Shown piece after piece: positions 1,370-61,949 of a stretch of DNA of 64,000 bases. The stretch comes from Cymbidium sinense. Its lineage: Eukaryota > Streptophyta > Magnoliopsida > Asparagales > Orchidaceae. A model generated the notes under the pieces. It did no database searches, was not told the DNA's origin, and saw only the letters and a list, made by a program, of their open reading frames with translations. A program made the position numbers and the translations under genes. The stretch lies in NCBI GenBank assembly GCA_021442155.1, contig CM038215.1:275950413-276014412 (forward strand). The letters are read 5' to 3'. Each line of letters starts with the position of its first letter. Within the stretch, counting starts at the first letter, position 1.

Positions 1370-1837
1370 AATTGAGAATAAATTCAGATTCAACATTTCT
1401 TCTTTTCGAATTCATCAACCAAGTAACACACCAAGTTTTCTTAGACACAAGCAATGACATAGATAGAAAATGAGCACGCATCGAGCAAATCAAAAACCCT
1501 AGATAACTAAAACTGCATCTACTATAAAGACAGTTTCATAAGCAGCAGATCAAATCGACCATTTTTCAATTTCACCAGTTCCCATCAAAACCACCCCAGA
1601 CACTCGAGTAGCGGGGTCCACCATCATATCAGCGATCTCTCCCTCCGCCACCACCACGGCTGTATCCTCCGTCGCTCCTTCCACCTCCATAACCACCATT
1701 GCTTTGACCACCACCTCTAGATCCCCCATAACCATTGCAATAATCACCGCCTCCGCCTTCATTTCCATCTCCAGATCTAGACGAAGCTTGGTTGGCAGTG
1801 ATGTTTCTATCGTCAAGGTTCTGCCCTTTCTTAGGGG
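1370..1837 (-). pseudogene. GRP retrocopy 1 (3' UTR plus glycine-rich C-terminus)
   Basis: Fragment of a glycine-rich RNA-binding protein of the plant GRP7 type (an RRM followed by a Gly/Tyr/Arg tail; such proteins bind RNA in nucleus and cytoplasm). Only the last codons of the RRM and the tail remain, at about 1567-1833 on the minus strand. The frame reads a K-G-Q-N-L-D-D-R-N-I-T segment, then S-R-S-G-D-G-N-E-G-G-G-G and Y-G-G-repeats, ending near D-G-N-W. CGA has become TGA in the R-D-R-G-Y-D-G-G segment and AGA has become TGA after the final W, so it is not functional. The 3' UTR homology runs down to 1370, ending in a short T-run (an A-tail on the minus strand). The upstream RRM is missing and CCTAA repeats replace it. 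The minus-strand valine/methionine-rich ORF at 1550-1861 is an out-of-frame shadow. Confidence 0.85.
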
Positions 1838-3009
1838 TTTTTTTTTTAAAAAAAAATTCAAAAGTGGGAGAATTTTATTGCCAAAAAGAAATATGGATAA
1901 AAGGTCCTTAAAGAGTATAAATCTCTAAATTACTGCTCAGAGAGCTATAATTAGCCTAAAGAGGTAAATCCCCTACCTATTATAAGAGAACGAAAGAAAA
2001 AGAATGAAAAGACAAAAACTAAGAAAGAAATAGCTCAAAATTCCAAGAAGGGTGGCCAAAGCCACCTATATCCCAAAATCTTTTGTGAGATGCACAAACC
2101 ACCTACAGCCCCAAAACCTGCCACAATCCTACAAAGAACTTAAGATAGAGAAAAGAATCTAGAAATAAGGACAAGCTAAGTACACAAAAGGAACAAAATG
2201 ATAAAATTCTTAGATAAGGCCCAGGCTCAGTCACATTCATCTCAAGGGGAAACATGATATGTGAGAATCCAAACTTTAGAAGAAGGGTTACAATCACATA
2301 TGGTTCTACCAGCCAAAAGAATAATAGGGAAAATATCCCAGTCATCATAGCCAACTTACCTCAATTAAAAAAAATAGCCAAGAGTTAGCCAAGTTCTAGT
2401 AACTATCATCAAAATTAAATAGGAAACTAACCAGCCAAACCAAAGGAAAGCAACCAACCAAATAGGACAATAACCAAGAAATAGCCACCATCAAAGTCAC
2501 CCAAAACAAACAAAGAACAAAGGTAAAGAACCAAAAAATTTGTAGATCCACCAACAAAAAACATAGTTGCAGCCAGCCATCAAGGCCACCCAGCCATCGA
2601 TAGTAGTAGGAATCAGTAGAAATAGCAACAGAGCCAAGAACAGCCAAAACCACATACAGGTTCATCCTCAGAGTCGAAAGAAATGACAATGGGCCATCCA
2701 AAATTAATAGGCAAACACCATAAAAAACTTTAAAAAACTACCGTAAAAGGGGAACAAAACTAGATGGCGTGCCTCAAGATAAAGTAAGTCAGCCTAGGAA
2801 GGAATAAAGCCAATGGCCAGGCTCAACCAACAATCACGATGCCAGATAGCCAAAATCGAAAGCAAGATCTGAAGCCTGCCAATCACCAGGCCATCCTAAA
2901 ACCAACATAGTAGGAAACCAATAAAAGGGGAGAGCCACCAAAACCAGAGGGCAACGAAAGCTCAGTAGTACCAACTAGAAATAATCCTGACCTCCATGAG
3001 AAGTTGATA
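1838..3009 (-). mobile_element. 5'-truncated LINE 3' tail, type 1 (left copy)
   Basis: Sequence of ordinary composition flanked by a short duplication of the junction it interrupts. CCCTTTCTTAGGGG lies at 1824-1837 and CCATTCTTACGG at 3010-3021; the better-preserved sister at 56.9 kb has exact CCATTCTTAGG copies. On the minus strand the 3' end carries an AATAAAATT signal and an A-rich end at about 1838-1860. A stretch at about 2220-2350 (CATCTCAAGGGGAAAC and AGAAGAAGGGTTACAATCAC) is also found in the 3' region of the two long LINEs, which identifies the family. No reverse transcriptase or RNase H remains. The minus-strand ORFs at 2103-2354 and 2396-2701 are Trp/Leu/Phe-rich and look like chance frames in a LINE 3' UTR. 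Confidence 0.75.
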
Positions 3010-3845
3010 CCATTCTTACGGTTCAGGTTTAGGTTTATTAGGTTTTAGGGTTAGGTTTATTTTTTAATTTACTTAGTTACATTAGGTTTAGGTTTAGGGT
3101 TCGGGATTTAGGGTTTAGCGCTAAAGGTTAGGGTTTAGCATTTAGGGTTTAGGGTTTAAGGTTTAGGGTTTAGGGTTTGAGGTTTAGGGTTGTAGGTTTA
3201 TGCTCTTGGGTTTAGGGTTCAAGGTTTAGGATTTAGGGTTTATGTTTTTTTTAAAAAAATTAAGTAAACTGATAAGTTTAGGTTTATTTAATTTATTTTT
3301 TATTTTTTTCAGTTTATTTTATATTATACTTTTATTTAGGTTTATTTTTTATTTATATTTAGTTTAGTTTATTTATTTTAGTTTTATTTATTTTAGTTTA
3401 GCTTTTTTATTTTAGTTTATTTTTTAGGTTTATATTTAGGATTTGCTTTATTTTTTTAGTTGAGTTTTATTTTTCCTTTATTTTTTAGGTTTAGATTTTA
3501 TGTTTTATATTTAGGTTTAGGTTCAAGTTTTTATTTTATTTTACTTTTTTTAATTTTATTTAGGTTTAGGTTTATTTATTTATTTTATTTTTAGGTCTTA
3601 TTTAGTTTATGTTTAGGTTTTTAGGTTTTTAGGGTTAAGGGTTTAGGGTTTAAGGTTTAGGGTTTGGGATTTAGGGTTTAGGGTTTAGGGCTTAGGGTTG
3701 TAAGTTTTAGGGTTTAGGGATTAAAGTTTAGCCTTTAGGCTTTAGAGTTTAGGGTTTAGGGTTTAGGGTTTATGGGATTAGGATTTATAGTTTATGGTTT
3801 AGCGTTCAGGTTTTAGTTTAGGGTTTAGGGTTTTTGGTTTTTTTT
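3010..3845. repeat. Telomere-like satellite unit
   Basis: Begins with the landmark AATTTACTTAGTTACATTAGG (about 3066), followed by TTTAGGG variants including TTTAGCATTTAGGG (about 3137). The AAATTAAGTAAACTG landmark is at 3255-3275, then a T-rich stretch, then a TTTAGGG tract up to the next GRP copy. It holds no gene. Confidence 0.8.
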
Positions 3846-4332
3846 AACATAGAACAAATTTAGATTCAACATTTCTTCTTTTTGATTTCATCAACCAAGT
3901 AACACACCAAGTTTTTTAAGACACAAGCGATCACATAGATGAAAAATGAGCATGCATAGAGCAAATTAAAAACCCTAGATAAATAGAACCATCTCTACTA
4001 TAAAGACACAGTTCCATAAGCAATAGATCTGTTCGGCCGATCTTTAGTTTCTTCAGTTCCCATCAGAACCACCATGGCCTCTCGAGTAGTGGGATACACC
4101 ATCATATCCTCGATCTCTCCCTCCGTCACCACCGCGGATGTAACCTCTGTCCCTCCTCCCACTTCCATAACCACCCTTACTCCAACCACCACCTCCATGT
4201 CCACCAACACCTTTAGATTCCCCACCACCACTACGATAATCACCTCCTCCACCTTTGCCTCCATCGCCATACCTAGACAAAGCCTGGCTGATGGTGATGT
4301 TCGTACTATGAGGGTTCTTCCCCTTCTTAAGG
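3846..4332 (-). pseudogene. GRP retrocopy 2 (longest surviving open frame)
   Basis: Same 5'-truncated GRP fragment as at 1.4 kb, and the only copy in which the glycine-rich frame stays open from the breakpoint (about 4330) to a stop at 4053-4055. The segment N-I-T-I-S-Q-A-L-S-R-Y precedes a tail of G-G-Y-G-S-G-R-R-D-R-G-Y and ends G-G-S-D-G-N-stop. TGG of the usual N-W-R-N end has become TGA. The first in-frame ATG is at 4280, giving 75 codons. No RRM and no promoter are visible, so it is most likely a pseudogene with a frame that happens to be open. The 3' UTR homology (3846-4050) ends in a T-run at 3838-3845. A second minus ORF at 3998-4270 and the plus ORF at 4074-4346 are shadows. Confidence 0.8.
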
Positions 4333-4730
4333 TTTTGGTTTTTTAAGTTTATGAGTTTAGGTTTATTTTTTTAATTTATTTAGTTACTTTAGGTTTAGGT
4401 TTAGGGATTGGGGTTTTGGGTTTAAGGTTTCGGGTTAGGACTAAGGGTTTAGGGTTTAGGTTTTAGGGTTTTGGGTTTAGGATTTTAGGTTTTATGCTTT
4501 CAGGTTTTAGGATTTAGGGTTAGGGTTTATGGTTTATGGTTTAGTGTTTAGTGTTTAGGCTTTAGAGTTTAGGGTTAGTTTAGGGTTTAAGGTTTAGGGT
4601 TTTATAGTTTAGAGTTTAAGGTTTAGGGTTTAGGGTTTAAGGTTTAGGGTTTTGGTTTAGGTTTTAGGGTTTAGGGTTTTAAGGTTTTAGGGTTTAGGGT
4701 TTAGGGCTTAGGGTTTAGAGTTTTTTTTGG
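4333..4730. repeat. TTTAGGG-rich tract with satellite landmark
   Basis: Starts with TTTTTTTAATTTATTTAGTT near 4368, followed by about 340 bases of near-continuous TTTAGGG variants, including a TTTATGCTTT word near 4493. It ends in T8G6 where the next LINE tail begins. Confidence 0.85.
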
Positions 4731-5848
4731 GGGGAAAGTTAGAATTTTATTAACATAAAAGGAAAAGATACAATTTTCTTAAAAGAGGTAAAGTTCTAAA
4801 ATTTTAGTGCTCTCAGATCTAAAAGAAACCTACCGAGCTAAACCCCCATCTAAGTATATTAGAAAAAAAAAAGAAAATAAAAGAGCAAACATATCGCCTA
4901 AAAAGCATAAGAGAAAAAGACACAGAAGGCTAAAATAAGTCCTGAAATAGTAAAAGGATGAGTCAACAATAGTGCATGATTCCTTTGAGAAAGCAAGATA
5001 AGTAAGATCCACAGCAACAACACTTGGGTTGACTGAGCAATGACCATTCCCTCTATAAAGTTCCAACCTGTAAAAGAAATCTGCAAAATGCTACAAAGGC
5101 AAAATTCATAGTTAAAAAAGAATAAAGATAAAAAGAAGAAAAGGAGAGAGCTGAGAAAGAGAAGGCTCAAGCTCAGTTAGGATCATCTCAAGGGGAAACA
5201 ATACATATGAGCATCCAAACTTCATAAGGAAGGGTTACAATCATATGTATTGCTACCAACTAGAGAGAAGAGGTGAGTAACATCAAAGCCATCATAGCTA
5301 GAATTCTTGATACAAGCAAACATCCAAGGCTAGCAGCCCATAGAGTTCTAGATCCAACACCATTAAATAGAGAGCAATCAGGCAGCAACTAGCTAGCAGA
5401 CAAACCATGAAAAATACCACAACATACTAATCACAATAACCTAGAGAGAGGCTAGAACAAAGTTAGAACACCAACAATGGTGATTAACTAAATACCCATC
5501 CAAGCTCCAAACCAGGGAAAATTAGAACCAACCATCAGCAAGCACCAGACCAATGCCAATTAATAGACAAATAGCAAACCAAACCAAGATAGGAGCCCTC
5601 AAGCCAAAGTCCCAACAACAACCAGTCACCAAGCCAAACTAGGGTTAGGAACCACAAATGACTAAACAACTTACAAATGAAATCATCAACTTAAGGAAAC
5701 ATAAGCTGCAGCTAGTGCTAATCATTAGAAGACAAAACAACCACACAAATGGGGGACAAAAGAAACCACCAACCACTAGAAACCAAAAAGTCCAATCCAA
5801 AAGGATCAACAAAGGTTTAGCCAGCACAGTAAAAGGCTCTTGTAAATT
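4731..5848 (-). mobile_element. 5'-truncated LINE 3' tail, type 2 (left copy)
   Basis: Minus-strand LINE 3' region. Its 3' end (about 4735-4850) has AATTTTATTAACATAAAAGG on the + strand, nearly identical to the 3' end of the long LINE at 27.1 kb. The shared block with CATCTCAAGGGGAAACAA is at about 5185. It joins T/G-rich satellite abruptly at about 5848. It matches 60,332-61,454 along its whole length, in the same position relative to the neighbouring GRP copies. No coding domain remains; the ORFs at 4830-5170 and 5645-5879 show no family signature. Confidence 0.75.
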
Positions 5849-5914
5849 ATCGAGTTTAGGTTTTAGGATGTGGGTTTAGGTTTTAGTTTACGATTTAGGG
5901 TTTAAAGTTTTTTT
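5849..5914. repeat. Short TTTAGGG-like spacer
   Basis: Sixty-odd bases of degenerate TTTAGG/TTTAGGG between the LINE tail and the A-tail of the next GRP copy. The same short spacer is present at 61,455-61,491. Confidence 0.75.
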
Positions 5915-5999
5915 TAATAGAGAAAATTCAGATTCAACATTTCTTCTTTTTGATTTTCTCAACCAAGTAACACAATAAGTTTTCTAAGACACAAGTGGT

Positions 6000-8501
6000 T
6001 GTTGTCTTAATGAGCCTCATGTTCAATACGATCAATTTTGATGATAACAAATGAATGCTTGGATGTTCTAATGTATGTTTTATGTGTTTCAGATATATTA
6101 ATTTCTAATTACATATCCAATAAATCTCATAATATGTTTGAGGAAATTGCAAAAATATAAGAATGAAAGATATATCAAAATGTATAACGTGATAATATTT
6201 TTGGTTTTATGCATTTATAACTATCCTAGAAATTCATATGAGTTCATTAGCATGAATCAATTTGCTCACAAATTAACATATTAATTTTATTTATTTAAAA
6301 TAATGATAATGAGGTTAATTTATAGAAATCTCTATCTAATTAACATTGAATTATATGTTTCATACATAGCATTTGAATTGTCAAAATAATAAATGATAAT
6401 AAATTATGACTATTAAGTGTAATTAGTTTATATACTTGATATAATTAAATTTTTAATTTGATTTTAAGGTTATATGATAACTAACATATGTATGATTATA
6501 TATAAATTATATCACAATATTTAAATGTATTATTACAAAATTAACAAACATATGTGGAAATTTGTATTTTAGGCAAAGTCATTTTATAATCAAGGCAATT
6601 ATATCAAATTTCATCTCCAATGGATTCCTTGGATTTTTTCCTTCAATTTTTTAGGTTACATGACCCATGTTTAATTAAAATTGTATTTATTATTACTTTT
6701 GAAACATTAGCTAATTTTAATACTGCATGCATGCTATATGCTTTGAATATATTAAGAGCCATATCTGACTATTTTTTACTTGCCCATGTGAATAGCTGAA
6801 TTTTGGCTATTTGAATTTAATATTTTTTTAATATAAACTATATTTTTATTGAATATTAATTATTATATGATAAAATGTTGTTAGAATAATATATTTTTTG
6901 AAATAATTCAAAATGACCTTCTTGCTTATAAATAGCCCTCATTCTCTTCATGAAAGCATCCCTCGTTCAAATTCAAAAGCCCTCCACCAAATCTAAGAGA
7001 AAATTTCCTAGATTTTCCTTCTAGGTGTTCTCTAAATATTGCAAGATCAAATCCTTGGTTTGGAAGTTTCAACATCTTCAACTAAGCAAGCTTTTTCAAA
7101 TTAATTGAGTTTATTTTCTGAATCTTAATCCTTGTTTAGTTGTTCATACTATTTTCATAATCTATTTATTCTTTCCAATTTATACTTTTTGGTGGATTAG
7201 TCTTTGGACATCAAAGTCTATGTTTTTCACATCAAAGTTTCTTCAATCATTTTTTTGTGAAAAACTCTTGTGATAGTTTGTAGGATTTATTTCAACTTGT
7301 TGAAATTTTTATCTTCCTATAAATTTCTTTTAGTTTCTTGAAATATTTCTTGATTATTCTTATTTGAAAGATCATTAATTCTTAGATCTATTTTAGAAGT
7401 ATATTTTAAGCATTTCAAATTAATTTATTGTGCTGAAATTATTTTTATATTTGATAGATCTCTCTTTTAAATTAAAAGTTTACTTGTTTACTTAAATCTA
7501 TCATATACTAATTTTATTTAAGTATTTTGTGATTAATTTCATTAATTCAAAGCTTCATTTTGGTTAAAATAAAATAAATTATTGCTGGAATTTTAGAGTA
7601 TATGCTAGATCTATTATAAATCAAGTTTCTTTAACAAAATCAAAATTTATAAAAAATTAAATTATTTTATTTGTCACTTATCATTTTATTTCAATTAATA
7701 TCCTTTATTTTAAAAATTTTATCTTACTGAAATTTAGTAAAGCTTGTTGTTTTCATTGTTTTATAATTAATAAAAAGGAAGTTTAGTAGAAAGTTAATCT
7801 TTCTTACACTATTATATACATACTAGTTATAGTTTCTCTTAAACTTAAATTTATTCCTTGCTGAAATTTAATTTATTGTACAAATAGTCTATTATGAATT
7901 TATTTTGAAATCATTTTATTTAATCTACAAATTATAATAACATAAACATCTTAGTAAGATCACTTTAAGATATTTATTTATTATTTTTTTATCAAAATTA
8001 AGTTAGCATTCTGTCTAGCCAAATTAGTTAGTTGTAAAGTGATCATTTATAAGTTTTGAGATAACTTTATGAATTGGAAAGCTTGGTATATTTGTGAGAG
8101 ATATATTTTATCAAAATTCTTTATTTTGTATTTTTCTTTTCATACTATAAAATTTATATTAGGGTTGTACTCGTCCCTTTGTAAGTGAGTACATATTATT
8201 TTAGGGGTTGTACTCGCCCTGTTATAGGAGAGTACTATTTATAAGCTATTTTACATTTAGTAGTTTTCTAGCCAAGGCTAGGCGTAGGTCGATTTTGGGG
8301 TTTGAACCATGTAAAAGGTGCCTATTGTCTCTTTTTACTTTACTATACTTTTATTTTTCCTGCATTAAGAATTGTATCTTCTCATTATAAAATTAAAAAT
8401 TTATTTTCTACTAAAACATAAAATTTATGATTTAACTTTTAAAATTTGTAATATCACCCAATTCACGGTCCCCCTCCTCTTGGGTCCTATAATGACTCAC
8501 A
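6000..8501 (+). mobile_element. Solo LTR, Sirevirus-like (Ty1/copia)
   Basis: A 2502-base insertion that begins TGTTGTC and ends ACTCACA, flanked by 5-base near-identical target copies (GTGGT 5995-5999, ATGGT 8502-8506). It interrupts the GRP 3' UTR cleanly. Features recall Sirevirus/Maximus LTRs as I know them: TTTTGATGATAACAAATG close to the start (about 6034), paired TTGTACTCG words near 8165 and 8205, a conserved patch around 8277-8330 with GGCGTAGGTCG and TTGAACCATGTAAAA, and TTCACGGTCCCCCTCCTCTT just before the end. No primer-binding site, gag or pol follows, so this is a single LTR left by recombination. The sister locus at 61.5 kb has no insert. Clade assignment is from memory of family signatures. 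Confidence 0.75.
6927..6935 (+). promoter_or_regulatory. TATA box of the solo LTR
   Basis: TATAAATAG lies about 930 bases into the LTR, followed within 30-40 bases by a plausible transcription start (CATGAAAGCATCCC). This is the expected U3/R arrangement and supports the + orientation of the LTR. A promoter remnant here could still drive transcription towards the telomere-like arrays, but nothing in the sequence shows that it does. Confidence 0.5.
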
Positions 8502-8894
8502 ATGGTGACATAAATAAAAAATGAGCACGCATAGAGCAAATAAAAAGCCTTAGAAAACTAGAACCATTTCTACTATAAAGAGACAGTTCCATAAGTAGCA
8601 GATCAAATCGATTGTTCTTCAATTTCTCTAGTTCCCATCAAAACCATCGTGGCCTCTCAAGAAGTGGGCTCCACCATCATATCCCCGATCTCTCCCTCCT
8701 CTACCACCTTGACTGTAACCTGTATTGCTTCACTCACCTACATAACCACCAATGCTCTAACCACCGCCTCCATATCCACCAGCACCTGCATATCCCCACC
8801 ACCGAAGTAATAATCCCCCACCATCAATGCAATAATCTAGACTGAGCATGGTTGATAGTGATGTCCTTCCCGTCAAGGTTTTGCCCATTCTTAG

Positions 8895-11800
8895 GGTTTA
8901 GGTTTAGGCTTAGGTTTATTAGGTTTTAGTGGTTTATTTTTTAATTTATTTAGTTACTTTAGGTTTAGGTTTAGGGTTTTGGGTTTAAGGTTTAGGGTTT
9001 AGGGTTAGGCTTTAGGGTTTAGGGTTTAGGGTTTAGGTTTTAGCATTTTAGGGTTTATGCTTTTAGGGTCTAGGGTTTAGGGTTTTTTAGGGTTTAGGGT
9101 TGTAGGTTTACAATCTAGCATTTATGGTTTAGTGTTTGAATTTAAGGTTTAAGGTTTTTTAAAAAAATCAAGTAAACCGGTAGGTTTAAGTTTATTTAGT
9201 ATATTTAGTTTATTTTTTATTCATTTTAATTTACTTTATTTTTTATTTTTTCTAGGTTTATTTTTTATTTAAATTTAGTTTAGTTTTTTATTTTAGTTTA
9301 GACTTTTTATTTTAGTTTATTTTTTAGATTTAGGTTTAGGTTTATTTTTTAGTTGAGTTTTATTTTTATTTTATTTTTTAGGTTTAGGCTTTATTTTTTA
9401 TTTTTAGGTTTAGGTTTAGGATTTTATTTTATTTTTAGGTTTAAGTTTTAGGATTTTATTATAGGTTTATTTTTTGGTTTTATTTTTTAGATTAGATTTA
9501 GTTTATTTTATTTTTTTAAATTTTAGGTTTAAGTTTAGGTTTAGGTTTAAGTTTTATTTATTTTAGTACAGTTTATTTTAGTTTAGGTTTAGTTTTATTT
9601 TATTTTATTTTTATTTTAGGTTTAGGTTTTTTTTTAGTTTAGGGTTAAGGTTTTATTTTTTTATTTATATTTAGGTTTTATTTTTAGGTTTATTTTTTAG
9701 GTTTAGGTTTTTATTTAGTTTTTTTTTTTATTTAAATATTTTATTCTTAGGTTTATTTTAATTTTAAGTTATTTTTAGTTTTAGTTTTTAGTTTTGGTTT
9801 TATTTTATTTTATTTTATTTCTATTTTTTATTTTATAAGTTAAGTTTAGGTTTAGTCCCAGGTTTTAGCTTAGGTTAGGCCTAGGATGATTTTAGGGTGG
9901 GTCAGGGTTATCTGGGATTAGTGTTTAGGATTTAGTGTCAAGATAGAGCCTGGGAGGTTTGAGTAGAGTGTGGTTAGATTTGTGGAGGATAGGAAGGAGG
10001 TTAGGGTAGGGTGTTATCAGCTTCAGTGCAAGGGTGGTAAAGAGGGTTAGTTTAGGTGGGGGGTCAGAGTCAGGGTTGGGTTTAATAGTAGGGAGGTTTA
10101 GGGTTAGGGTTTAGGGTTTAAGATTTAGTGTTTAGGGTTTAGGGTTTAGCATTTAGGGTTTTTTTCTAAATTAAGTAAATAGGTAGGTTTTGGTTTAATT
10201 AGTTCATTTTATATCTTACTTAGGTTTAGTTTTTAATTTTATTTAGTTTAGTTTATTTATTTTATTTTTATATATTTTATTTTAGGTTTTATTTTAGTTT
10301 AGGTTTAGGTTTATTTTATCTTTATTTTAAGTTTAGGTTTTTTTAATGTAGGGTTTATTTTTTATTTTTATTTTTTAGAGGTTTTATTTCTAGGTTTATT
10401 TTTTAGCTCTAGGCTTTTATTTTTTTATTTTTGGTTTATTTGGTTTTTATTTTACATTTAGTTTTTTCTTAATTTTATTTTATTTTTAAGTTTAGTTTAG
10501 GTTTTTATTTATTTTATTTTAGTATATTTTTATTAATAAATTTTTTAATTTTTAGGTTTACATTTAGCTTTTAGTTTAGGTATTGATTTGATTTTATTTT
10601 TTATTTTATTTAGGTTTAGGTTTTTCTATAAATTTTTTTTAGGTTTTATTTAATTTTGATTTAGGTTTTAGATTTTAAGTGGGGTTTTAGGTTTAGGGTT
10701 TAGGTGGGTTAGGGTTTGGTATTTTGGGCAGGTTTAGGATTAGGGGTTAGGGTTTAGTGTTTAGGCTTTAAGCTTTTGTGTTTTTAGGATTTTGGGTTTA
10801 TGGTCTAGGGTTTAGGGTTTAGGGTAAGCTTATGGTTTAGGTTTTTTTTAGTTTAGGGTTTATGTTTTATTTTTTATTTATGTTATAGGTTTTATTTTTA
10901 AGTTTTATTTCTTAGCTTTAGGATTTTATTTAGTTTTTAGTTTATTTTATTTTAGGTTTATTTTATTTTTATTTACGTTTAGTTTTTATTTTATTAAGGT
11001 TTTTTATTCTTTGGTTTATTTTAAGTTTGTTTTATGTTTTATTTATTTTAGTTTAGTTTATTCTAGTTTAGGTTTAGGTTTATTTTATTTTGTTTATTTT
11101 AGGTTTAATTTTTTTTTTAGTTTAAGGTTTAGGTGTTATTTTTTATTTATTTTTAAGTTTTATTTTTAGGTTTAGTTTTTAAGTTTAGGTTTTTATTTAG
11201 GTTTTATTTTATTTTATTTTAGGTCTATTTTATTTTTATTTTACATTTAGGTTTTATTTTATTTAAGTTTATTTTATTTTTTAAGTTAATTTTAGGTTTT
11301 TATTTATTCTATTTTAATTTAGTTTTTATTTTTTATTTAATTTTACTTTTAGGTTTAGGTTTAGGTTTTAATTTAGGGTTTTATTTTATTTTATTTTTTA
11401 TTTAGGTTTTGGTTTTCTTTATTTATTTTATTTTTAGGTTTTATTTAGTTTAGGTTTAGGTTTTTAGGTTTTTAGGGATTAGTTATGGTTTATCATTGGT
11501 GGGGTTTAGGGTGGGGTATGTTGGGGTTTAGGGTTTATGATTTAGGGTTTTAGGGTAGGGTTTGAGGGGGTTTAGGGGCATTTTGGGCTAGGGCTTTGTT
11601 TTAGTTTAGTGGTTGTAGGTTTAGGGTTTAAGGTTTAGGATTTTAGGTTAGTTTTAGGGTTTGGGGTTTTGTCCTTTTTTATTTTTTTAAATTAATTAAA
11701 CTATTAGGTTTATGTTTATTTAGTTAATTTTTTATTTATTTCAATTTAGCTTATTTTAATTTTTATTTAGGTTTATTTTTATTATTATTTAGTTTAGCTT

Positions 11801-45318: not shown

Positions 45319-45479
45319 GGTTTAGATTTAAGGTTATCAAGTTTTAAGGTTTAGGTTTCTTTTTTAATTTATTTAGTTACTTTTATTTTTTGGGTTTAGG
45401 GTATAAGGTTTAGGGTTTTAGGATTTATGCTTTTAAGGTTTAGGTTTAGGTTTAGGAGTTTGAGGCAGATGAGCATAGT
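45319..45479. repeat. Satellite junction unit
   Basis: TTTTTTAATTTATTTAGTTA landmark at about 45,360 and a TTTATGCTTTTAAGG word at about 45,426, in the order seen after other GRP copies. Confidence 0.75.
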
Positions 45480-50048: not shown

Positions 50049-50649
50049 GATAAAACCCACAATGGGGGAAAATTTCATTGCCACAAAGGAGTTCAAAAGT
50101 CCTTAAGAGGGGAAGAACCTCAAAACTAATGCTCCTAGAGTTACAATCAACCTAGAGAGAAAATTCCCCAAACTATTACAACCAGAAACACGAAAGAAAA
50201 TAAAACCTAAGAAATGGAGCAACAAAACAAAAGAAAAAAAAAGAAACATTCAATGACCACAAATAAAACAGCAGGAGAGCGAGAGTAGTAGAAGCCACAA
50301 GCTGAAGCCGACACCTGCAAAGAAAAGAAGAAAGACCTATAGAAATGAAAGCAAGAGAAAATCAAGGAAGAAAAAAAGGAAGGGATGAAGAGTGAAAGAA
50401 AGGTTCAAGCTCAGTATAGAAAAAGGGGGACAACCAAATTTTATGAGCAGCCAAACCTCTAGAAGAAGGGTTACAATAAAAAAAAGGCTACCAACCAAAG
50501 TGGAAAAAGGAACATCCCAGCCATCATTGCCAACAAACCTCATAGAAATGCACCAAACCAAGCAGCAAAGTCAGCCAAGAATAATGGATAGCAACCACCA
50601 TCATAGAAGGAGAAAATGAAATTAAGTAAATCTGACAAAAGGCAAATCA

Positions 50650-51455: not shown

Positions 51456-51509
51456 TAAGGTAAAATTACCATTAAAAGAACTAATGTTGAATAAGTCCTC
51501 ATACTAATT

Positions 51510-52400: not shown

Positions 52401-52483
52401 AAAAAATGAAATTCAAGGGTAGATATCTTATTCTGAATGTTCTGGATAACCTCATCAAAAAGGTGAGACCTCTTAGGACCACA

Positions 52484-53460
52484 CTATAAAGGAGAACCTA
52501 AATACATGATAGGAAGACATTGATGAGAAAATCTAGTAATATCTTTTATTTTATTGATTCTATGAGCAAAAATAGAAACATAGGAGATAAAATAGCCTTT
52601 CTGAGTACTAATCAAGAGGCCACTTTCCTTTTCAAACTTATTCAAAAACACCATCAATTTTTTAACATATTGTAATGAGCCATTACAAAATATAATGAAG
52701 TCATTAGCAAAACTTAAGTGGGATATAACCAAACCACCAAGATTCCTAAAATACATGCTAGAATTTCACCCAAACAAAAAATTAAGCCAACAAGACAAAT
52801 ATTCAATAGTAATAATAAAAAGTGACAGAGAAAGAGGATCACCTTATCTAATACCTTGGTAAGACTTAAAGAAGCTAAAGTTTTCACCATTTATAACTAA
52901 AGAGAATCTAACATTACAAATGATATTGTTAACCAAAGAGATAAATTTAGTAGAGAAATTGAATAAAGAGAGAATGATGTTAACAAAATCCCAAGAAATG
53001 TTGTCATAAGCTTTGGTAATATCAAGCTTGAAAAGGAAATTGCCACCTATTGGTTTTACATTTAAATCATGAATTAAATCTTGCGCAAGCAAGATGTTGT
53101 CAGAGATAGTCCTACCATTCACAAAGCTAGTTTGATTAGGAGAAATAATCTTAGGAAGAAATTTACCAAGCCTACTAGTCAGAATTTTAGAAATCAATTT
53201 ATTAAAGAAAGTATAAAGACAAATAGGTCTGAAATCATTCTAGAAGTCAGGATTATCTTTCTTGGGAATAAGAATAATATTTGTAGAAGTGAAGTATTTA
53301 GGATTAGAGTTCCAAAGAAATAAATCCCTCACGACATTAACAAGATCAAATTTAATAATAAACCAAGCTTTTTGGAAGAGTAAAATAGAATAGCCATCCA
53401 ACCCTGCAACAGAATTAACATTCATACCATTAAAAATATTAAACATTTCCTCATCCAAAG
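52484..53460 (-). pseudogene. LINE B reverse transcriptase (broken)
   Basis: Blocks in order: G-L-D-G-Y-S-I-L-L-F-Q-K-A-W and I-I-L-I-P-K-K-D-N (53,240-53,458); I-S-P-N-Q-T-S-F-V-N-G-R-T-I-S-D-N and K-L-D-I-T-K-A-Y-D-N-I-S-W-D-F (52,844-53,197); S-Y-Q-G-I-R followed by TAA then G-D-P-L-S; and S-H-L-S-F-A-N-D-F-I-I-F-C (52,484-52,756). Gln of R-Q-G-D-P has become a stop, and the F-A-D-D box reads F-A-N-D. Either change alone would be expected to abolish activity. Confidence 0.85.
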
Positions 53461-53844
53461 GAGGAGAAACCTAGCAATCATTATCCTCAAGAAACATAAT
53501 AAAAGAAATGATAGATGGGTTAGATAACTAGTCAAGGTGACAATTTTTATTTAAAAGATCTTTAAAATAGTTAATAGCAAAAGGAAAAATATCCTCTTTT
53601 TTGGTGATCCAAGAACCATCAAAATTCTTAATTTTATGAATTTTCCCAATAACTCTCCTTTACATAACCAAAGCATGAAAATATTTGGTGTTTCGTTCCC
53701 CCTCAGAAAGATGTTTAGAAGTAGGCTTTTGTATCCAATAGGTTTCCTCTATATCCTGAACTTAGTGAGATTATTTTTAACTTTAGCAAGGTTAGAACAA
53801 ATAGAGGAATCATTATTAACAAGTTCTTCCAAATATTTCTCCTA

Positions 53845-54735
53845 TTATTTCATGCTCTTGATATTATCAAAAAGATTTTTGAAATAATTTCTATTCCACC
53901 AATTAATATGATGCTTAAGCCTTTTTAGTTTAAGCAAAAATCTCTTCATACTAAAAGCAGAATCATCAGGAACAAGAGGAGCATACCAATTAGAAGTGAT
54001 AGCATCAAGAAAGCCACTATCTTGCAACCACATATTCTGAAAATGAAAATTGTTAATAACATTATTGTTATGAACAACATTTTTAATGGAAATCAAAAGA
54101 GGAGCATGATCCGAGAGAGTTCTACTAAGGTGTTAAACCAAAGTCAAAGGCAAATGGTTTAACCAAAAATTATTAAATAAGGCACAATCCAATGTTGCCA
54201 AAGTCTATGATTATTCCAAGTGAAATGAGAGCCAATAAAACCAACATCATGCAAATTACACTCTAAGAACAAATTAAAAAAATCTTCTATAGAATGTAAA
54301 TTCGACGGAGAACCCCCTTTTCTTTCATTCACAAAAAGGACCATATTGAAATCCCCACCAACGATCCAAGAATAAATAACAGTAGAAGCAAAAGTAGATA
54401 ATTTATCCCAAAGAATCCTCCTCTTATCTTATTACAAACAGCATAAACAAAAGAGCCAAAACCATGATAATCACCAAGATAAATATCCACATTTGCAACT
54501 TGATGAAAATCATTAATGACATTAATACAAAGAGAATTATTCCAAAATAACCAAATCTTATTGCTATTGTTAAAAAAATAATTCGAGAAACCAATAATTC
54601 TAGCCGCATGCATACTTTTAGAAGAAAAAATAAGACATTCAAGAATAACAAAGAAATTGACATTATAAACCCTACAACGGTTCTTAATCCTATTCCTAAT
54701 AGCAAGAGTACCAATGCCCGAACATTTAAAAAAAA
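53845..54735 (-). pseudogene. LINE B endonuclease and linker (broken)
   Basis: The N-V-R-G-I-G-T start is recognisable near 54,725 but is frameshifted next to a T-run. V-I-L-E-C-L-I-F keeps the Glu (about 54,650), followed by A-R-I-I-G-F and K-I-W-L-F-W-N-N. The C-terminal part (54,159-54,344) has D-V-G-F-I-G-S-H-F-T-W-N-N-H-R. The usual L-D-R is lost. The linker frame 53,845-54,096 has F-H-F-Q-N-M-W-L-Q-D-S-G-F and L-K-R-L-K-H-H-I-N-W-W-N-R. The enzyme normally nicks target DNA for first-strand priming. Confidence 0.8.
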
Positions 54736-54749
54736 AAGTAAAAATTAAT

Positions 54750-56106
54750 TCTTATTAGGAAAAGAAGATGAAGAAGATCGAGTCAATCTAGAAACTTTAG
54801 GAGGAAAATTTTTGAACTATTTTTTCCTTTTCACAAAAATAGTTTGGAAACTAGTTTCATTTCCCAAAGATTCATCATCAGAAGGAGCATTAGAACTCTT
54901 AGTAGCTGCAAATTTGGTAGGAGAATCCAATTGAAAATGCACTAAAACATTAGTATCCATTAATTGATATGAAACCATAGACAAAACATCATCAGAAATA
55001 ACTATTAAAGAAGGAGCAAAAATAGATTTGTTAAGCAAACAAGAAGCAGGTTGCACAACATCCTTCTTATCCAAACCATCAACAACTTCCATATTAAAAA
55101 AAATTAAAATCATCTTTTTCTTTTAGAGGTTCTTGAAAATCAGAAAGAAAGACATTATCTTTAAAATTTTTAGGAGCTATATCACAACAATCTTTAGTAG
55201 ATGAAACCAAAATTGGAATAACATCACCTTGAATATTTCCAAAAAGCATAGGATCAATAGAAGCCAAAATCTGATTTCCATTCAAAGCATCATCATTATT
55301 TTTAGAAACATTTTCAAAAGAATTCTCAGAAGTTAAAAAAATTCAATCAGCAACATCTTTATCTTTTTCAAAAGAAACAAAACTTTTATTTTTATTAGTT
55401 AAATGATATCTAGGTTGATCAAACAGCTTAGGATTTTTAATAAATTTTTTTCTGAGTTGAGGATGAGCAATGAAACATTCTAAAAAGACATGACCATGGG
55501 TTTTATAGTGATTGCAGAAAGCAGGAAGTTTTTTAAATGCAACTGGTTGAAAGTACCCATATGTTTTGAACCCTATCTAAATCTCTTTAGAAAACATCTT
55601 TATAACATCAATTTCAATAAGGATACTAGCAACTAAAGGGTGTGATTTAGCCGTAGTTGCATCATCGATTTGTAAAGGTCTACCAAAAATAGACCCATGA
55701 AGAAAACAAAACATAAAGCCTCCAAAAAATAAGAGATTCTTCTTGAATGTCAAAAAGGAGTCCTTTTAAGAAATTCTTAACTTGATCATAATAATATGAG
55801 GGATACCATGCAATGACATATCCAACAAACAAGCGAAAAGTAGGAAAAATTGAATATCATTCATATTGTCGAAGAAGAAAATTTGCCAATCGAAAAGCAT
55901 AAGCTTCAATATCCCAACACATTATTATCATGTCGTAAACAAGATTAATCAAAATTCATGGGAGGTTGAAAAGCATATCTTTACTAGATGAAGGATTTAA
56001 AAGAAGCAAGCTTAGATTTACCCAAGAAATCATTAGTCCTAGGAGGAGCAGCTTTAGGCATTTGTTTAGCCTTTCTAGATACCAGATCTGACTCCAAGAC
56101 ATCCAT
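54750..56106 (-). pseudogene. LINE B ORF1 (gag-like) remnant
   Basis: A likely start is ATG 56,106 (M-D-V-L-E-S-D-L-V-S-R-K-A-K-Q-M), open for about 40 codons. A zinc-knuckle relic near 55,450-55,530 reads F-C-N-H-Y-K-T-H-G-H-V-F-L-E-C. This is the C-x2-C-x4-H-x4-C pattern with the second Cys changed to Tyr. The frames at 55,094-55,285 and 54,817-55,113 continue to the basic C-terminal end (S-L-G-N-E-T-S-F-Q-T) that matches LINE A. Confidence 0.7.
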
Positions 56107-56252
56107 TTGAACTAGTGGAGAAGAGGGGAATTGGCCAAAGGCCAAGGAATGAGAGCCTTACCAGTGAAGATCATCAAGGATCCATGGAAAAATCTAAAGA
56201 AACAAGGGTTTCTTGAACACTAGAAAGCCGAGAGGGAAAGGCATGCTCGGGC

Positions 56253-56452
56253 TTCAGGTTTAGGGTTTAGGGTTTATATTTTTTTTTTAGTTTAGGGTTT
56301 AGGGTTTAGGGTTTAGGGCTTAGGTTTTAGGGTTTAAGGTTTAGGATTTAGGGATTTAGGGTTTAGGGTTTAGAGTTTATGGTTTAGGTTTTAGATTTAG
56401 GGTTCAAGTTTTAGTTTAGGGTTTATGGTTTAGGGTTTTTGGTATTTATTTT
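56253..56452. repeat. TTTAGGG tract between LINE B and GRP copy 9
   Basis: About 200 bases of TTTAGGG variants, with a T-run (about 56,277) that looks like a remnant of a satellite junction. Confidence 0.8.
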
Positions 56453-56940
56453 TTAACAGAGAAAAAAATCAGAATCAACATTTCTTCTTTTTGAATTCAT
56501 CAACCAAGTAACACACCAAGTTTTCTAAAATACAAGCGATGAGATAGATTAAAAATGAGCATGCATAGAGCAAATTAAAAATCCTAGATAACTAGAACTG
56601 TCTCTACTGTAAAGACATAGTTCCATAACTAGCAGATCGGATTGGACAATTATTAGTTTGTCAAATTCCCATCAAAACCACTGCATCTTTTTGAGTAGTG
56701 GGATCCACCATCATATCTCTAATCTCTCCCTCCGCTATCACCATGGTTGTAACCTCCGTTGCTCCTCCTCCCTCTATAACCACCATTGCTCTAACCACCA
56801 CCTCCATATATACTAGCAGCTCTAGATCCCCCACCACCAATGTGATAACCGCTGCCTCTGCCTTCACCTCCACCACCAAATCTGGACTGATCCAAGTTGA
56901 CGGTGATGTTTCTACCATCAAGGTTCTGCCCATTCTTAGG
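56453..56940 (-). pseudogene. GRP retrocopy 9 (sister of copy 1)
   Basis: Shows the conserved N-terminal part best: N-G-Q-N-L-D-G-R-N-I-T-V-N, then Q-S-R-F-G-G-G-G-E-G-R-G-S-G-Y-H. Two TAG codons interrupt the tail (after Y-G-G-G-G and in the R-D-R-G-Y segment), and the final Trp is lost. Its 5' edge is the exact junction that the adjacent LINE tail used as target. Frames at 56,661-56,933 and 56,698-56,979 are shadows. Confidence 0.85.
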
Positions 56941-58223
56941 TTTTTTTTTAAATCAAAAGTGGGAGAAATTTATTGCTAGAAAGAAAGGGATAAAATGTTC
57001 TTAAAAGGGATTAATCTCTAAACTACAGCTTAGAGAGCTATAATTAGCCTAAAGAGGTAAATCCCCAACCTATTACAAGAAAACCAAAGCAAAAGAAAGA
57101 AAAGACAAAAATTAAGAAAGAAATAGCACAAAATTCCAAGAAGGGCAGCCAAAGCCATATATATCCCAAATTCTTCTAAGAGATGCACAAACTACCTATA
57201 GCCCCAAAACCTGCCACAAACTTGCCAAGAACTTAAGATAGAGATAGGCATCTATAAATAAGGACAAGCTAAGTACACAAAAGGAATAAAATGACAAAAT
57301 TCTTAGATAAGGCTCAGGCTCAGTCACATTCATCTCAAGGGGAAACAAGATATGTGAGCATCCAAACTTCAGAAGAAGGGTTACAATCACATATGGTTCT
57401 ACTAGCCAAAAGGATAATATGGGAAACATCCCAACCATCATAGCAAACTTACCTCGATTAAACTAAACAACCAATAACAAAGATCTAACCAAGTTCCAGT
57501 ATCTATCATCAAGATTAAATAAGCAACTAATCAGCAAAACATACAGCCAAACCAAAGTTAAGCAACCAACCAAACAAGACAACAACCAAGAAATAGCCAC
57601 CATCAAAGCCACCCAAAACAAACAAAGACCAAAGGTAAAGAACCAAAAAATTTGTAGATCCACAAATCAACATCACAGTTGTAGCCAACCATCAAGGCCA
57701 CCTAGCTAACCATATTAACAAGAATCAGCAGAAATAGCAATAGAGCCAAGAACAGCCAAAACCACATACAAGTTTATCCCAAAATAGAAAGAAATGATAA
57801 GCCAATGGGCCATCCAGCCAACAGGCAAAAACCATAAAAAAAACTTCAAAAAAACCACCATAAAGGGGGACCGAAAACTAGATGGTAGGTGACAACTCTA
57901 GAGAGAGTAACTCAGCCCATAAAGCAACAAATCCCATGACCAGGTTCAACCAATAATCATGATGCCATTTAGCTAAAAATGAAAGCAAAAGGTTGGAAAA
58001 AACCCTAACCATCAAGCAACCACTATCCAATAAACCCTCACAAGGAAAAAAGAGGCTAGGGAAAAAGGCAAACAAGTAAGCTCCGAAGCCTCCCAATCAC
58101 TAGACCATCCAAAAACAAACACAATAGAAGACCACCAAGAGGAGAGAGCCACCAAAACTAGAGGGCAACCAAAGCTCAATAGTACTAACCAGAAATAATC
58201 AAGACCTCCATCAGAAGGAGATA
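56941..58223 (-). mobile_element. 5'-truncated LINE 3' tail, type 1 (right copy)
   Basis: Flanked by an exact 11-base duplication, CCATTCTTAGG, at 56,930-56,940 and 58,224-58,234. The 3' end on the minus strand has an A-run followed by CTAAG. It aligns along its whole length with 1838-3009, including the AGAAGAAGGGTTACAATCAC block (about 57,370). No RT or RNase H is left; frames at 57,196-57,663 and 57,878-58,227 are non-coding by composition. Confidence 0.8.
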
Positions 58224-59506
58224 CCATTCTTAGGGATTAGATTTAGGTTTATGTTTATTAGGTTTTAGCGTTTAAGTTTATTTTTTAATTTATTTAGTTA
58301 CTTTAGGTTTAGGTTTAGAGTTTGGGGTTTAAGGTTTAGGATTTATAGTTTAGGGTTTAGGGTTTAGGGTTTATGATTTAATGTTTAGGGTTTAGGGTTT
58401 TAGGGTTTATGCTTTTAGGGTTAGAATTAGGGTTAGGGTTAGGGTTTAGGGTTTAGGGTTTTTTAGGGTTTAGGGTTTAGTGTTTAGGGTATAGCATTAT
58501 AGGTTTAGGTTTATGGGTTTAGGGTTTAGGATTTAGGGTTTATGATTTTTTCTTAAATTAAGTAAACCTATAGGTGTAGGTTTATTTAGTTTATTTTTTA
58601 TTTATTTTAGTTTATTTTAATTTTTTTCATTTAGTTTAGTTTATTTATTTTAGGTTTATTTATTTTAATTTAGGTTTTCTATTTTAGTTTATTTTTTAAG
58701 TTTAGGTTTAGGTTTAGGTTTATTTTTTAGTTGAGTTTTATTTTTATTTATTTTTTAGGTTTAGATTTTTTTTAGGTTTAGGTTTAGGTTTTTCTTTTAT
58801 ATTTTTAGGTTTAATTTTTAGGTTTTTATTTTAGGTTTATTTTTAGGTTTAGGTTTTTTTTAGTTGATTTTTTTTATTTAGTTTAGGTTTAGGTTTAGGT
58901 TTTATTTATTTTAGTTTAAGTTTAGGTTTATTTGATTTTATTTATTTTATTTTTTATTTTAGGTTTATATTTTAGTTTAGTGTTTAGGTTTTATTTTAAG
59001 GTTTATTATTTAGGTTTAGGTTTTTATTTTATTTTATTTTAGGTTTATTTTATTTTTATTTTATGTTTAGTTTTTATTTTATTTAGGTTTCTTATTATTA
59101 AGTTTATTTTATTTTTTAGTTTAGTTTAGGTTTTTATTTATTTTATTTTATTTTATATTTAGGTTTAGGTTTAGGTTTAGGTTTTAGTTAATGTTTTTAT
59201 TTTATTTATTTTATTATTTTATTTAGGTTTAGGTTTATTTATTTATTTTATTTCTAAGTTTTATTTATTTTATGTTTAGGTTTTTAGGTTTATAGGGTTT
59301 AGGGTTTAGGGTTTAGGTTTTCGGGGTTAGTGTTTAGGGTTTTGGTTTGTAGGTTTTTAGGGTTTAGGAATTAGTGTTTATGGTTTAGGGTTTAGGGTTT
59401 AGGGTTTATCATTTAGGGTTTAGGGTTTAGGGTTTATGGTTTACGGTTGTAGGTTTAGGGTTTAGGGTTCAGGTTTTAGTTTAGGGTTTAGAATTTTTGG
59501 TTTTTT
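58224..59506. repeat. Telomere-like satellite unit
   Basis: TTTTTTAATTTATTTAGTTA landmark near 58,275, TTTATGCTTTTAGGG near 58,407, AAATTAAGTAAACC at 58,555-58,568, T-rich satellite, and a TTTAGGG tract at 59,285-59,490. It corresponds to 3010-3845 but is longer by about 450 bases of T-rich repeats. Confidence 0.8.
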
Positions 59507-59992
59507 TAGTAAAGAAAAAATTTAGATTCAACATTTCTTCTATTCGATTTCATCAATCAAGTAACACACCAAGTTTTCTAAGACACAAATGATGACATAG
59601 ATAAAATATGAGCACGCATAGAGAAAATTAAAAACCCTAGATAATTAGAATTGTCTCTACTATAAAGACATAGTTCCTTAAGCAGCAGATTGGATCATCC
59701 ATTCTTTAGTTTCTCCAGTTCCCATCTGAACCACCCCAGCCTTTCAAGTAGCAGGATCCACCATCATTTCCCTGATCTCTCCCTCTGCCACCACTATGGT
59801 TGTAACTTTCGTCAGTCCTCTCACCTCCATAACCACCATTGCTCTGACCACCACCTTTATATCCACCAGCACCTCCAGATCACCCACCTCCACTATGATA
59901 ACTGCCACCTCTACCTTCACCTTGACTGCCATATCTAGACTGAACTTAGTTGACAATGATGTTCCTACCATCAAAGTTCTGCCCAATCTTAG
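59507..59992 (-). pseudogene. GRP retrocopy 10 (sister of copy 2)
   Basis: One frame runs the entire length, with only two internal stops: TAA in I-V-N-x-V-Q-S-R and TGA before S-G-G-A-G-G-Y. It ends with the full G-G-S-D-G-N-W-R-N and a normal TAA at 59,706-59,708. This copy therefore gives the best estimate of the source protein's C-terminus. The 3' UTR extends to 59,507. Confidence 0.85.
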
Positions 59993-60331
59993 GGTTTAGG
60001 TTTATTTGGTTTTAGGGTTTAGGTTTTTTTTAATTTATTTAGTTACTTTGGGTTTAGGTTTAGGGTTTAGGGTTTAGGGTATAGGGTTTAGGTTTTATGC
60101 TTTTAGGGTTTATGGTTTTGGCTTAGGGTTTAAGGTTTAGGGTTTAGGGCTTATTGTTTAGGCTTTAGGGTTTAGGGTTTGTTTAAGGTTTAGGATTTAG
60201 GTTTTTAGAGTTTAGGGTTTATGGTTTAGGGTTTAGGGTTTATGGTTTAGGGTTTAGGGTTTAGGGTTTGGATTTAGTGTTTATGGTTTAGGGTTTTAGG
60301 GTTTAGGGTTGTTTAGGGTTTAGGGTTTTTT
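59993..60331. repeat. TTTAGGG-rich tract
   Basis: Landmark TTTTTAATTTATTTAGTTAC near 60,026, then near-continuous TTTAGGG variants to a T-run at 60,326-60,334. The counterpart is 4333-4730. Confidence 0.85.
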
Positions 60332-61454
60332 TTTGGAAAAAGTTAGAATTTTATTATCATAAATGGAAAAAATATAATGTCCTTAAAAGAGGTAAAGCTC
60401 TAAAATTCTACTACTCTCAGAGCTACAAGAAAATTAGAGAGCTAAACCCCCATCAAAGTACATTAGAAAAAGAAAAGAAAACAAAATAGAAAATACAACA
60501 CCCCCAAAGCAAGAAAAAGACAGAGTAAAACTAAAGTAAATCTTAAAAGTAGAAAAAGGATGAGTTAGTTGCAGATCATGATTCTGTTATGAAAGCAAGA
60601 TAAGCAAGATCCACAATAACAATACTTAGGTTGACTGAGCAATGACCATTCCCTCTATAAAGTTCCAACATGTAAAAAAAATCTGTAAAACACTACAAGG
60701 GCAAAAATCATAGCTAAAAAGGATAAGGATAAAGAGAGGAAAATGAGAGAGTTGAGAAAGAGAAGGCACAGGCTAAGTTAGGATCATCTTAAGGGGATAC
60801 AATACATATGATCATCCAAACTTCATAAAAAAGGGTTGCAATCATATGTAATGCTACCAGCCATAGAGAAGAGGTGAGTAACATCAAAGCCATCATAGTC
60901 AACATACCTAATACAAGAAAAAATTCGAGGCCAGTAGTCCATAGAGCTCCAAATCCATCACCATTAAACAAAGAGCAACCGACCAGCAACCCGCTAGCAG
61001 CCAAACAACCAAATGAAAACCATAATAGACTAATCACAATAACCTAGAGAGGCGAACAAAGTTAGAACACCACCATAACCAACCATTAAAATACCCATCC
61101 AAGCTCCAAACTAGGGAAAACCAGAACTAGCCATCAGCAAGCACCAGACTAATGCTAATTAAGAGAGAAATAGCCAACAAAATCAAGATAGGAGCCCTCA
61201 AGACAAAGTCCTGGCAATAAGCAGTCACCAAGCTTAACTAGGTTGAGCAACCACAAATGACTAAATAGCTTAGAAATGAAACCAACAACTGAAGGAAACA
61301 TAAGTTGCAGCTAGTGCAAATCACTAGAAGAAAAAACAACCACTCAAAAGGGGTTGAAAGGTAGCCACCAACCACCAAAAATCATAAAGTCTAATCCAAA
61401 AGCATCAACAAAGATTCATCCAGCACAACAAAAGGTTCTAACAAATTATCAGGT
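60332..61454 (-). mobile_element. 5'-truncated LINE 3' tail, type 2 (right copy)
   Basis: Aligns with 4731-5848 along its length, with the same end points and the same GRP neighbours on either side. The CAATGACCATTCCCTCTATA block near 60,638 matches 5038 almost exactly. The minus frame at 60,789-61,037 has no domain. Confidence 0.8.
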
Positions 61455-61491
61455 TTAGGTTTTAGTTTAGTGTTTAGGGTTTTTGGTTTTT
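61455..61491. repeat. Short TTTAGG-like spacer
   Basis: Counterpart of 5849-5914, only some 37 bases. Confidence 0.7.
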
Positions 61492-61949
61492 TTAATACAG
61501 AATAAATTTAGATTCAACATTTCTTCTTTTTGATTTCATCAACCAAGTAACACACCAACATTTCTAAAGCACAAGTGATGACATAGATAAAAAATGAGCA
61601 TGCATAGAGCAAATCAAAAACCCTATAAAATGAGAATCGTCTCTACTATAAATACATAGTTTCATAAGCAGTAGATCGGATGGATCGTTCTTCAATTTCT
61701 TTAGTTCCCATCAAAACCACCCTAGGATCTCGAGTAGTGGGATCCACCATCATATCCTTGATCTGTCCCTCTGCCACCACCACGGCTGTAACCTTTGTCG
61801 CTCCTCCCGCTTCCATAACCACCACTGCTCCGACCATCACCTCCATATCCATCAAACCTAGAAACCACCACCACCATTGCCACCCTTACCACCTCCATTC
61901 GGCTGGTTGATAGTGAAGTTTCTATCATTAAGGTTTTACCCATTCTTAG
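61492..61949 (-). pseudogene. GRP retrocopy 11 (uninterrupted sister of copy 3)
   Basis: The 3' UTR is continuous across the site where copy 3 carries the solo LTR (CACAAGTGATGACATAG at about 61,570). The coding remnant has N-L-N-D-R-N-F-T-I-N-Q-P-N-G-G-G-K-G-G, an internal deletion with a frame change, then G-G-Y-G-S-G-R-S-D-K-G-Y-S-R-G-G-G and G-Y-D-G-G-S-H-Y-S-R. The 73-codon minus frame at 61,722-61,943 covers the second part. Confidence 0.8.

Follow-up and report, generated by a model that had tools for sequence, protein, structure and literature searches.

A composite satellite of telomere-like DNA and a glycine-rich RNA-binding protein gene remnant in the orchid Cymbidium sinense

The stretch analysed here (the window) comprises 64,000 bp of Cymbidium sinense, C2:275950413-276014412 of the 3.53-Gb source genome, and lies in the interior of a 306-Mb contig within an assembly of 20 chromosome-scale contigs of 73-377 Mb (C1-C20) and unplaced ones, of which C21, C22 and C23 measure less than 0.2 Mb each; Cymbidium has mostly 40 chromosomes, and C. 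ensifolium a genome of 3.56 Gb, according to the available part of the source (PMC9539832). The window holds eleven minus-strand units derived from the gene of a glycine-rich RNA-binding protein (GRP), a count already made in a sequence-only reading of this DNA and recovered here by blastn, in which two different copies used as queries returned the identical set (Table 1). Two of these units (remnants 5 and 6) are incomplete and one (remnant 3) is interrupted by an insertion. In alignment, pairwise identity among the eleven copies is 66-82%, and identity to the consensus 78-89%. The consensus has the open reading frame of the C-terminal part of a plant GRP, then a stop codon, a 3' untranslated region (UTR) of ~200 nt and an A-run. 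With five further units on the same strand, four within the 10 kb that precede the window and one within the 6 kb that follow it, the count rises to 16 in 80 kb.

The DNA surrounding these units is AT-rich (24.9% GC with the GRP pieces removed) and one-sided in its telomere-like words: over 30,380 bases of satellite, TTTAGGG is found 356 times (8.7 after base shuffling) and CCCTAAA not once. It is an interstitial telomere-like repeat, enriched in TTTAGGG on one strand and situated away from a chromosome end. In 310 kb fetched as 27 stretches from 21 places, with 100 GRP matches when pieces are counted apart, every stretch has a single GRP orientation, which in all 27 is antisense to the G-rich strand. 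By a loose word test, all 79 of the 3' ends adjoin telomere-like DNA, as do 53 of 69 5' sides, the other 16 adjoining LINEa, a truncated insert that appears to be long interspersed nuclear element (LINE)-like (14 sides recognised by pattern and 2 by eye, with 3 further sides lying too close to the end of a stretch). On C1, the 100 junctions listed first, which span its initial 3.2 Mb, form 19 same-strand runs where 51 would be expected, and arrays of tens to hundreds of kb therefore alternate in orientation. Long head-to-tail tandem arrays at high copy number make this satellite DNA, and the proposal of a composite satellite, a telomere-like repeat joined to a GRP piece, was borne out by the genome search, with a constant breakpoint and telomere-like flanks. 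That every copy in the window is framed by TTTAGGG-like DNA holds for most of them, the copies at 1365 and 56450 adjoining LINEa on the breakpoint side.

The order of landmarks after each copy, described earlier as largely constant, is kept in most copies and not in all. With at most one mismatch, CCATTCTTAGGG stands at the breakpoint of 7 of the 11 window copies (9 sites in total vs 0.55 expected in shuffles), and its other two sites, at 3010 and 58224, are its repeats past LINEa. The next landmark, TTTAATTTATTTAGTTAC (at most one mismatch), follows 9 of 11 copies directly or, in two of them, past LINEa, and is lacking after the copies ending at 22078 and 43662; TTTATGCTTTTAGGG (at most two mismatches) follows 7 of 11, as part of a pattern only 3-fold enriched (18 vs 5.55 in shuffles). 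The AAATTAAGTAAACC module begins 135-500 bp after 9 of 11 copies once LINEa is subtracted (three of its starts being assigned by eye), and the copies at 3841 and 59503 are followed by LINEb, a second truncated element, instead. This module is commoner than the GRP piece, with ~22 sites in the satellite part of the window. The T-rich module is found both with and without GRP, and in pairwise comparison its first 400 bp are best in phase in 133 of 136 pairs, the following 400 bp in only 57 of 120. The unit of roughly 0.9-2 kb suggested from the sequence alone is not a fixed one; spacing is irregular, and a larger block bearing LINE and long terminal repeat (LTR) insertions is itself repeated. 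GC-rich stretches of CCCAGGG and CTCAGGG type take the place of TTTAGGG tracts at 14000-15400, 23300-23800, 24500-25000 and 25300-25620, the exact words numbering 19 and 15 in the satellite part vs shuffle means of 0.1 and 0.2, and look as if T had given way to C in the telomere word.

In a genome-wide protein search, with 150 of 75,062 first-look candidates scored, the query matched a C13 locus as two exons. This gene reads intact, the single reported TAG falling within the last bases of its intron, and its protein is 94% identical to a Dendrobium chrysotoxum protein and 92% identical to one of Phalaenopsis equestris. The satellite consensus is 89% identical to it (433/488 positions) from inside exon 2 into the 3' UTR. 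At the 5' breakpoint, within exon 2, the gene reads ATGAATGGG and the satellite CCCTAAGAATGGG; at the 3' end the copies match the gene as far as about GTTCTTTGTTT, beyond which they pass into A's and the gene goes on as GATCATTC. Of 80 copies extending to this end, at least 5 A stand in a row in 75 and at least 6 in 63, against a maximum of 3 in the gene; the 12 runs of exactly 5 were excluded because the AAAAA of the telomere-like flank could supply them, and the evidence is taken from the 63. An A-run present in the copies and not in the gene is characteristic of a copy of a polyadenylated mRNA, and we read the GRP piece as a 5'-truncated retrocopy of the polyadenylated C13 GRP transcript. 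Its earlier description as a truncated gene is amended to a poly(A)-tailed retrocopy.

The same breakpoint recurs throughout the genome. Of the 150 scored matches, 129 begin at query residues 63-72, which correspond to it; among the other 21, two are the parent exons, 15 start within the RRM domain, at residue 9 or before, and are presumed to be other RRM genes, and three (C9:1378011, C3:205999570 and C17:63516589) were assessed as scored protein matches only. The last, on C6, was considered as a different, longer copy and rejected, its breakpoint proving identical when read and lying beside a LINEa-like end. The junction 17-mer CCCATTCTTAGGGTTTA has 9,659 forward and 10,050 reverse exact matches, 19,709 in all, against 0 + 0 for its reversed control. 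The many tandem copies that the sequence-only reading had named as support are present. As 17 of 82 GRP units in the fetched stretches carry this exact word, a total of ~95,000 units is suggested (63,000-157,000 by the binomial interval alone), to be taken as ~10^5 in order of magnitude only because 66 of the 82 come from places picked by similarity or from beside them. A 3' UTR 18-mer occurs in 43 of the 100 fetched matches.

Copies were found on 16 of the 20 chromosomes, with none on C8, C12, C15 or C19 among the hits scored. C1 is enriched, with 54 of 129 breakpoint matches (13.8 expected from its size) and 18 of 31 placed junctions of a split block described below (3.6 expected). In 40 evenly placed 400-bp samples, satellite (telomere-like or GRP) occurred in 4 of 20 on C1 vs 1 of 20 elsewhere, counting L046 (GRP, only 3 TTTAGG) and leaving out L056 (3 TTTAGG, no match); three more C1 samples match window LINEs. 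C1 itself starts within satellite in CCTAAA orientation (L089, C1:1-600), with no canonical telomere array in those first 600 bases.

The common 5' breakpoint indicates one founder for the copies. GRP genes of this kind are strongly expressed, which would favour many independent retro-insertions into telomere-like DNA, but the single 5' breakpoint already refutes this, and the single 3' A-site and the common LINEa, LINEb and LTR insertions speak against it too; we give it next to no credence. GRP blocks elsewhere with other flanks and breakpoints, which the sequence-only reading had named as the observation that would overturn it, did not appear among the scored protein matches or in the flanks of the stretches fetched.

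The copies drift without selection. Codon positions 1, 2 and 3 differ from the 11-copy consensus at 0.166, 0.186 and 0.171, and 10 of the 11 window copies contain in-frame stops. C>T or G>A changes amount to 0.27-0.33 at CG and CHG and to 0.07-0.10 at CHH against the 11-copy consensus, and to 0.33 (CG), 0.29 (CHG) and 0.10 (CHH) against the parent gene across 80 copies. This excess is the pattern expected of CG/CHG-methylated plant heterochromatin and would imply such a state here.

Later insertions mark out blocks within the array. Because LINEa and LINEb each occur twice, the block GRP-LINEa-GRP-LINEb-GRP is duplicated within the window; in one of the two, an insert of 2.5 kb splits the third GRP. 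This insert is a probable solo LTR in which no internal repeat pair was found. One or both sides of this split were seen at 17 of 20 fetched loci, and the word at the GRP/insert junction has 47 exact copies in the genome; as 6 of 16 known junctions carry the exact word, some 125 split-bearing blocks (73-309) are suggested genome-wide, a small part of the whole family. The same 17 loci contain stretches that run collinear with parts of the first 9.9 kb of the window, mostly at 79-90% identity, and the other three (L022, L024 and L026) match other window parts at 68-79%. In a phylogeny of 80 copies rooted on the parent gene, the LTR-split copies form one clade (16/16, support 1.0), as do 15 of the 16 LINEa-flanked copies (support 0.95). 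Copies at the same position in different loci are 84-85% alike, against 75% for neighbours in one locus, so same-position units are closer than neighbours, as in a higher-order repeat, at loci picked by similarity to one window copy.

Two further rival explanations were weighed. A Helitron- or MULE-like gene-capturing element moving the GRP piece and telomere-like DNA as a unit would account for the occurrence of copies on both strands and across many chromosomes, yet each locus has several GRP units and each stretch a single orientation, block edges vary between the few loci read far enough, and no common termini were seen among the few edges read; we regard it as highly improbable. An assembly or scaffolding artefact inflating the arrays, to which the 16 of 47 split-block junctions on unplaced contigs and the start of C1 inside satellite might point, is very unlikely, since copies from different loci diverge by 10-30% and have different inserts, and so are not a single sequence assembled many times over.

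We propose that a polyadenylated mRNA of the C13 GRP gene was reverse-transcribed and that a 5'-truncated copy landed in a T-rich array derived from TTTAGGG, antisense to its G-rich strand; the mRNA copy and its orientation are legible in the sequence itself. We infer that plant L1-type LINE machinery did the copying and that the T-rich strand primed on the A-tail. A LINE with reverse transcriptase (RVT_1 and zf-RVT, at 50036-56262) sits in the same array, zf-RVT being a mark of plant L1 elements, and all six LINE-type inserts of the window share the orientation of the GRP piece, on this explanation because the T-rich strand primes A-tails. The founder, with its telomere-like surroundings, would then have been amplified, an outcome evident in the ~10^5 tandem units, by what may have been unequal exchange or replication-based copying. 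LINEa, LINEb and the probable solo LTR entered array units, and blocks of ~9-13 kb bearing their marks were copied to several chromosomes, both of which are directly readable, as is the ensuing unselected drift, whose C>T changes at CG and CHG sites would imply methylated heterochromatin.

Alternatively, the founder may have arisen at a chromosome end, where a 3' G-strand primed the copying of GRP mRNA and telomerase sealed the cDNA with TTAGGG, the product being carried inward later. The G-strand order this predicts (telomere repeat, T-run, antisense cDNA, TTAGGG repeats) is seen, with CCCATTC|TTAGGG at the breakpoint, but priming in an existing interstitial array yields the identical product, there is no obvious microhomology at the junction, and the arrays spread along whole chromosomes and not just their ends. 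We consider such an origin unlikely. The common orientation was considered as proof of chromosome-end priming and dropped, as the T-rich strand already gives L1-type priming a one-sided target.

Several points weigh against the history proposed here, that of a retrocopy amplified within a telomere-like array. Neighbouring units are only ~75% alike, their spacing is irregular and the T-rich module is partly out of phase, unlike a homogenised satellite, and no regular homogenised monomer was found. The A-runs are short (4-11), the telomere-like flank itself contains AAAAA, and intron absence carries no weight and proves nothing because the whole fragment sits in exon 2; both flanks are repetitive and would mask a target-site duplication of the founder. 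Against the parent gene it is codon position 3 that differs most (0.245, vs 0.153 at position 1 and 0.216 at position 2), an excess we ascribe to change in the living gene. One of the 16 LINEa-flanked copies lies outside the LINEa clade, and the block is over-sampled because all 20 loci were drawn from the top 40 matches of a single window copy, which favours the block holding that copy. The inserts and GRP amount to only about five independent events, which would all point one way by chance with a two-sided probability of 0.06; the T-rich strand could bias LINE orientation anyway, and a presumably RTE-like LINE lying just upstream has the opposite orientation. This last element (L033:1715-2806, 10 kb upstream of the window) is a fragment on the plus strand, opposite to the window LINE-type inserts; the motif FIDLEKAYD and a GTT-rich tail suggest that it is RTE-like. 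With these points weighed, we consider it very probable that the whole is a dead composite satellite, in which a GRP retrocopy in telomere-like DNA was amplified, received inserts, spread in blocks and decayed neutrally.

Table 1. Features of the 64,000-bp window (positions within the window; GRP, glycine-rich RNA-binding protein).
Feature	Position	Strand	Basis or remark
T-rich module and TTTAGGG-like tract	1..1364	+ (G-rich strand)	sequence, word counts
GRP remnant 1	1365..1836	-	breakpoint at right; adjoins LINEa
LINEa	1836..3005	-	truncated, apparently LINE-like insert; poly(A) end, CCATTCTTAGG repeated both sides, at GRP breakpoint
TTTAATTTATTTAGTTAC (1 mismatch), AAATTAAGTAAACC (1 mismatch), T-rich module, TTTAGGG tract	3006..3840	+	landmark scan
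GRP remnant 2	3841..4336	-	blastn, alignment
LINEb	4725..5845	-	truncated relative of LINE at 27110 (72% over ~730 bp)
GRP remnant 3, 3' piece	5911..5996	-	blastn, alignment
2.5-kb insert within GRP remnant 3	5997..8497	.	TG..CA ends, 5-bp target duplication (ACCAC or CCACT, one-base ambiguity)
GRP remnant 3, 5' piece	8498..8899	-	blastn, alignment
Telomere-like satellite with several T-rich modules	8900..12735	+	landmark scan, module alignment
GRP remnant 4	12736..13231	-	blastn, alignment
Telomere-like satellite with GC-rich CCCAGGG-type variants	13232..16376	+	word counts
GRP remnant 5	16377..16657	-	without 3' part
Telomere-like satellite	16658..21660	+	landmark scan
GRP remnant 6	21661..22078	-	degenerate on breakpoint side
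Telomere-like satellite	22079..27109	+	landmark scan
Long LINE	27110..34840	-	65% identical to LINE at 50036 over ~3.7 kb
GRP remnant 7	43180..43662	-	blastn, alignment
GRP remnant 8	44842..45323	-	blastn, alignment
Telomere-like satellite without GRP	45324..50034	+	sequence
Long LINE	50036..56262	-	RVT_1, zf-RVT; RVT_3 below its cut-off
GRP remnant 9	56450..56943	-	adjoins LINEa
LINEa, second copy	56940..58223	-	identical site, 86% identical to first; block duplication
GRP remnant 10	59503..59997	-	blastn, alignment
LINEb, second copy	60333..61452	-	82.5% identical to first
GRP remnant 11	61489..61954	-	blastn, alignment
Telomere-like satellite, runs on past window end	61955..64000	+	1 more GRP within next 6 kb

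The window also contains a 7.4-kb insert at 35660-43055 with short internal direct repeats, in which no terminal repeat pair was found; parts of it match 3 of the 40 evenly placed genome samples (L040, L063 and L075), and it is probably an abundant dispersed repeat. Rfam gave no match at gathering scores, and the GRP junction had none in viral and general genome contig collections, as expected for plant DNA. Elsewhere in the genome, matK-like matches (the best 120 of 765) often fall several to a place, over many contigs and mostly with stops; these scattered matches are extensive plastid DNA in the nucleus. For one matK-like stretch, the portion that can be read is closest, among named matches, to orchid maturases, at up to 90%.

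The earlier reader knew of no plant satellite of this make-up, and no description of one was found in the open-access literature, most subscription journals lying outside the scope of the search. Telomere-like satellites and amplified retrocopies are known separately; no report was found of both joined in one satellite, this large and with a readable history. Its successive marks (retrocopy, LINEa, LINEb and LTR) make the order of capture, amplification and spread readable, with the living parent as reference, and show how a large satellite can be built in traceable steps. The satellite would yield no product, any role it has would be structural, and nothing was seen that points to a function other than in heterochromatin. 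The GRP/TTTAGGG junction is a ready probe for orchid heterochromatin by fluorescence in situ hybridization or polymerase chain reaction, and annotators should be warned that a GRP gene model will match very many dead sites in the source genome.

An AT-rich satellite DNA of Cymbidium was reportedly the subject of a 1976 paper by Capesius (FEBS Lett 68:255, listed among the references of PMC11985410), and, likened by that title alone, it and the GRP satellite belong to the same genus and are both AT-rich. That the present satellite is the main part of this 1970s AT-rich satellite and heterochromatin, makes up several per cent of the genome and a far greater proportion of C1, and, being late-replicated or unreplicated, contributes to the partial endoreplication of orchids is a tentative idea, more apt to be wrong than right. 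Very large interstitial arrays of TTTAGGG and its variants also form the pericentromeric megablocks of Cycas, thought to have been altered after leaving the telomere; these consist, in the available part of the account, of simple 7-bp variants, whereas the Cymbidium arrays include long T-rich modules, a gene retrocopy and retroelements and lie along the chromosomes (PMC9827991). In seed plants, interstitial telomeric-like repeats likewise place telomere-like DNA at non-terminal sites and have been proposed to spread as satellites do, perhaps via circular DNA, but the available part of that source mentions no gene piece such as the GRP unit (PMC8621592). The GRP sequence resembles the equid LCORL retrocopies, also multiplied at the DNA level by segmental duplication after retrocopying, going by what is available of that report (PMC10249811), and differs in its ~10^5 copies and its place within a satellite. 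The higher-order repeats of alpha satellite (mentioned in PMC9498494) share with the Cymbidium blocks a closer likeness of same-position units than of neighbours, whereas the Cymbidium units are irregular, carry LINE and LTR inserts within their blocks and are far less homogeneous.

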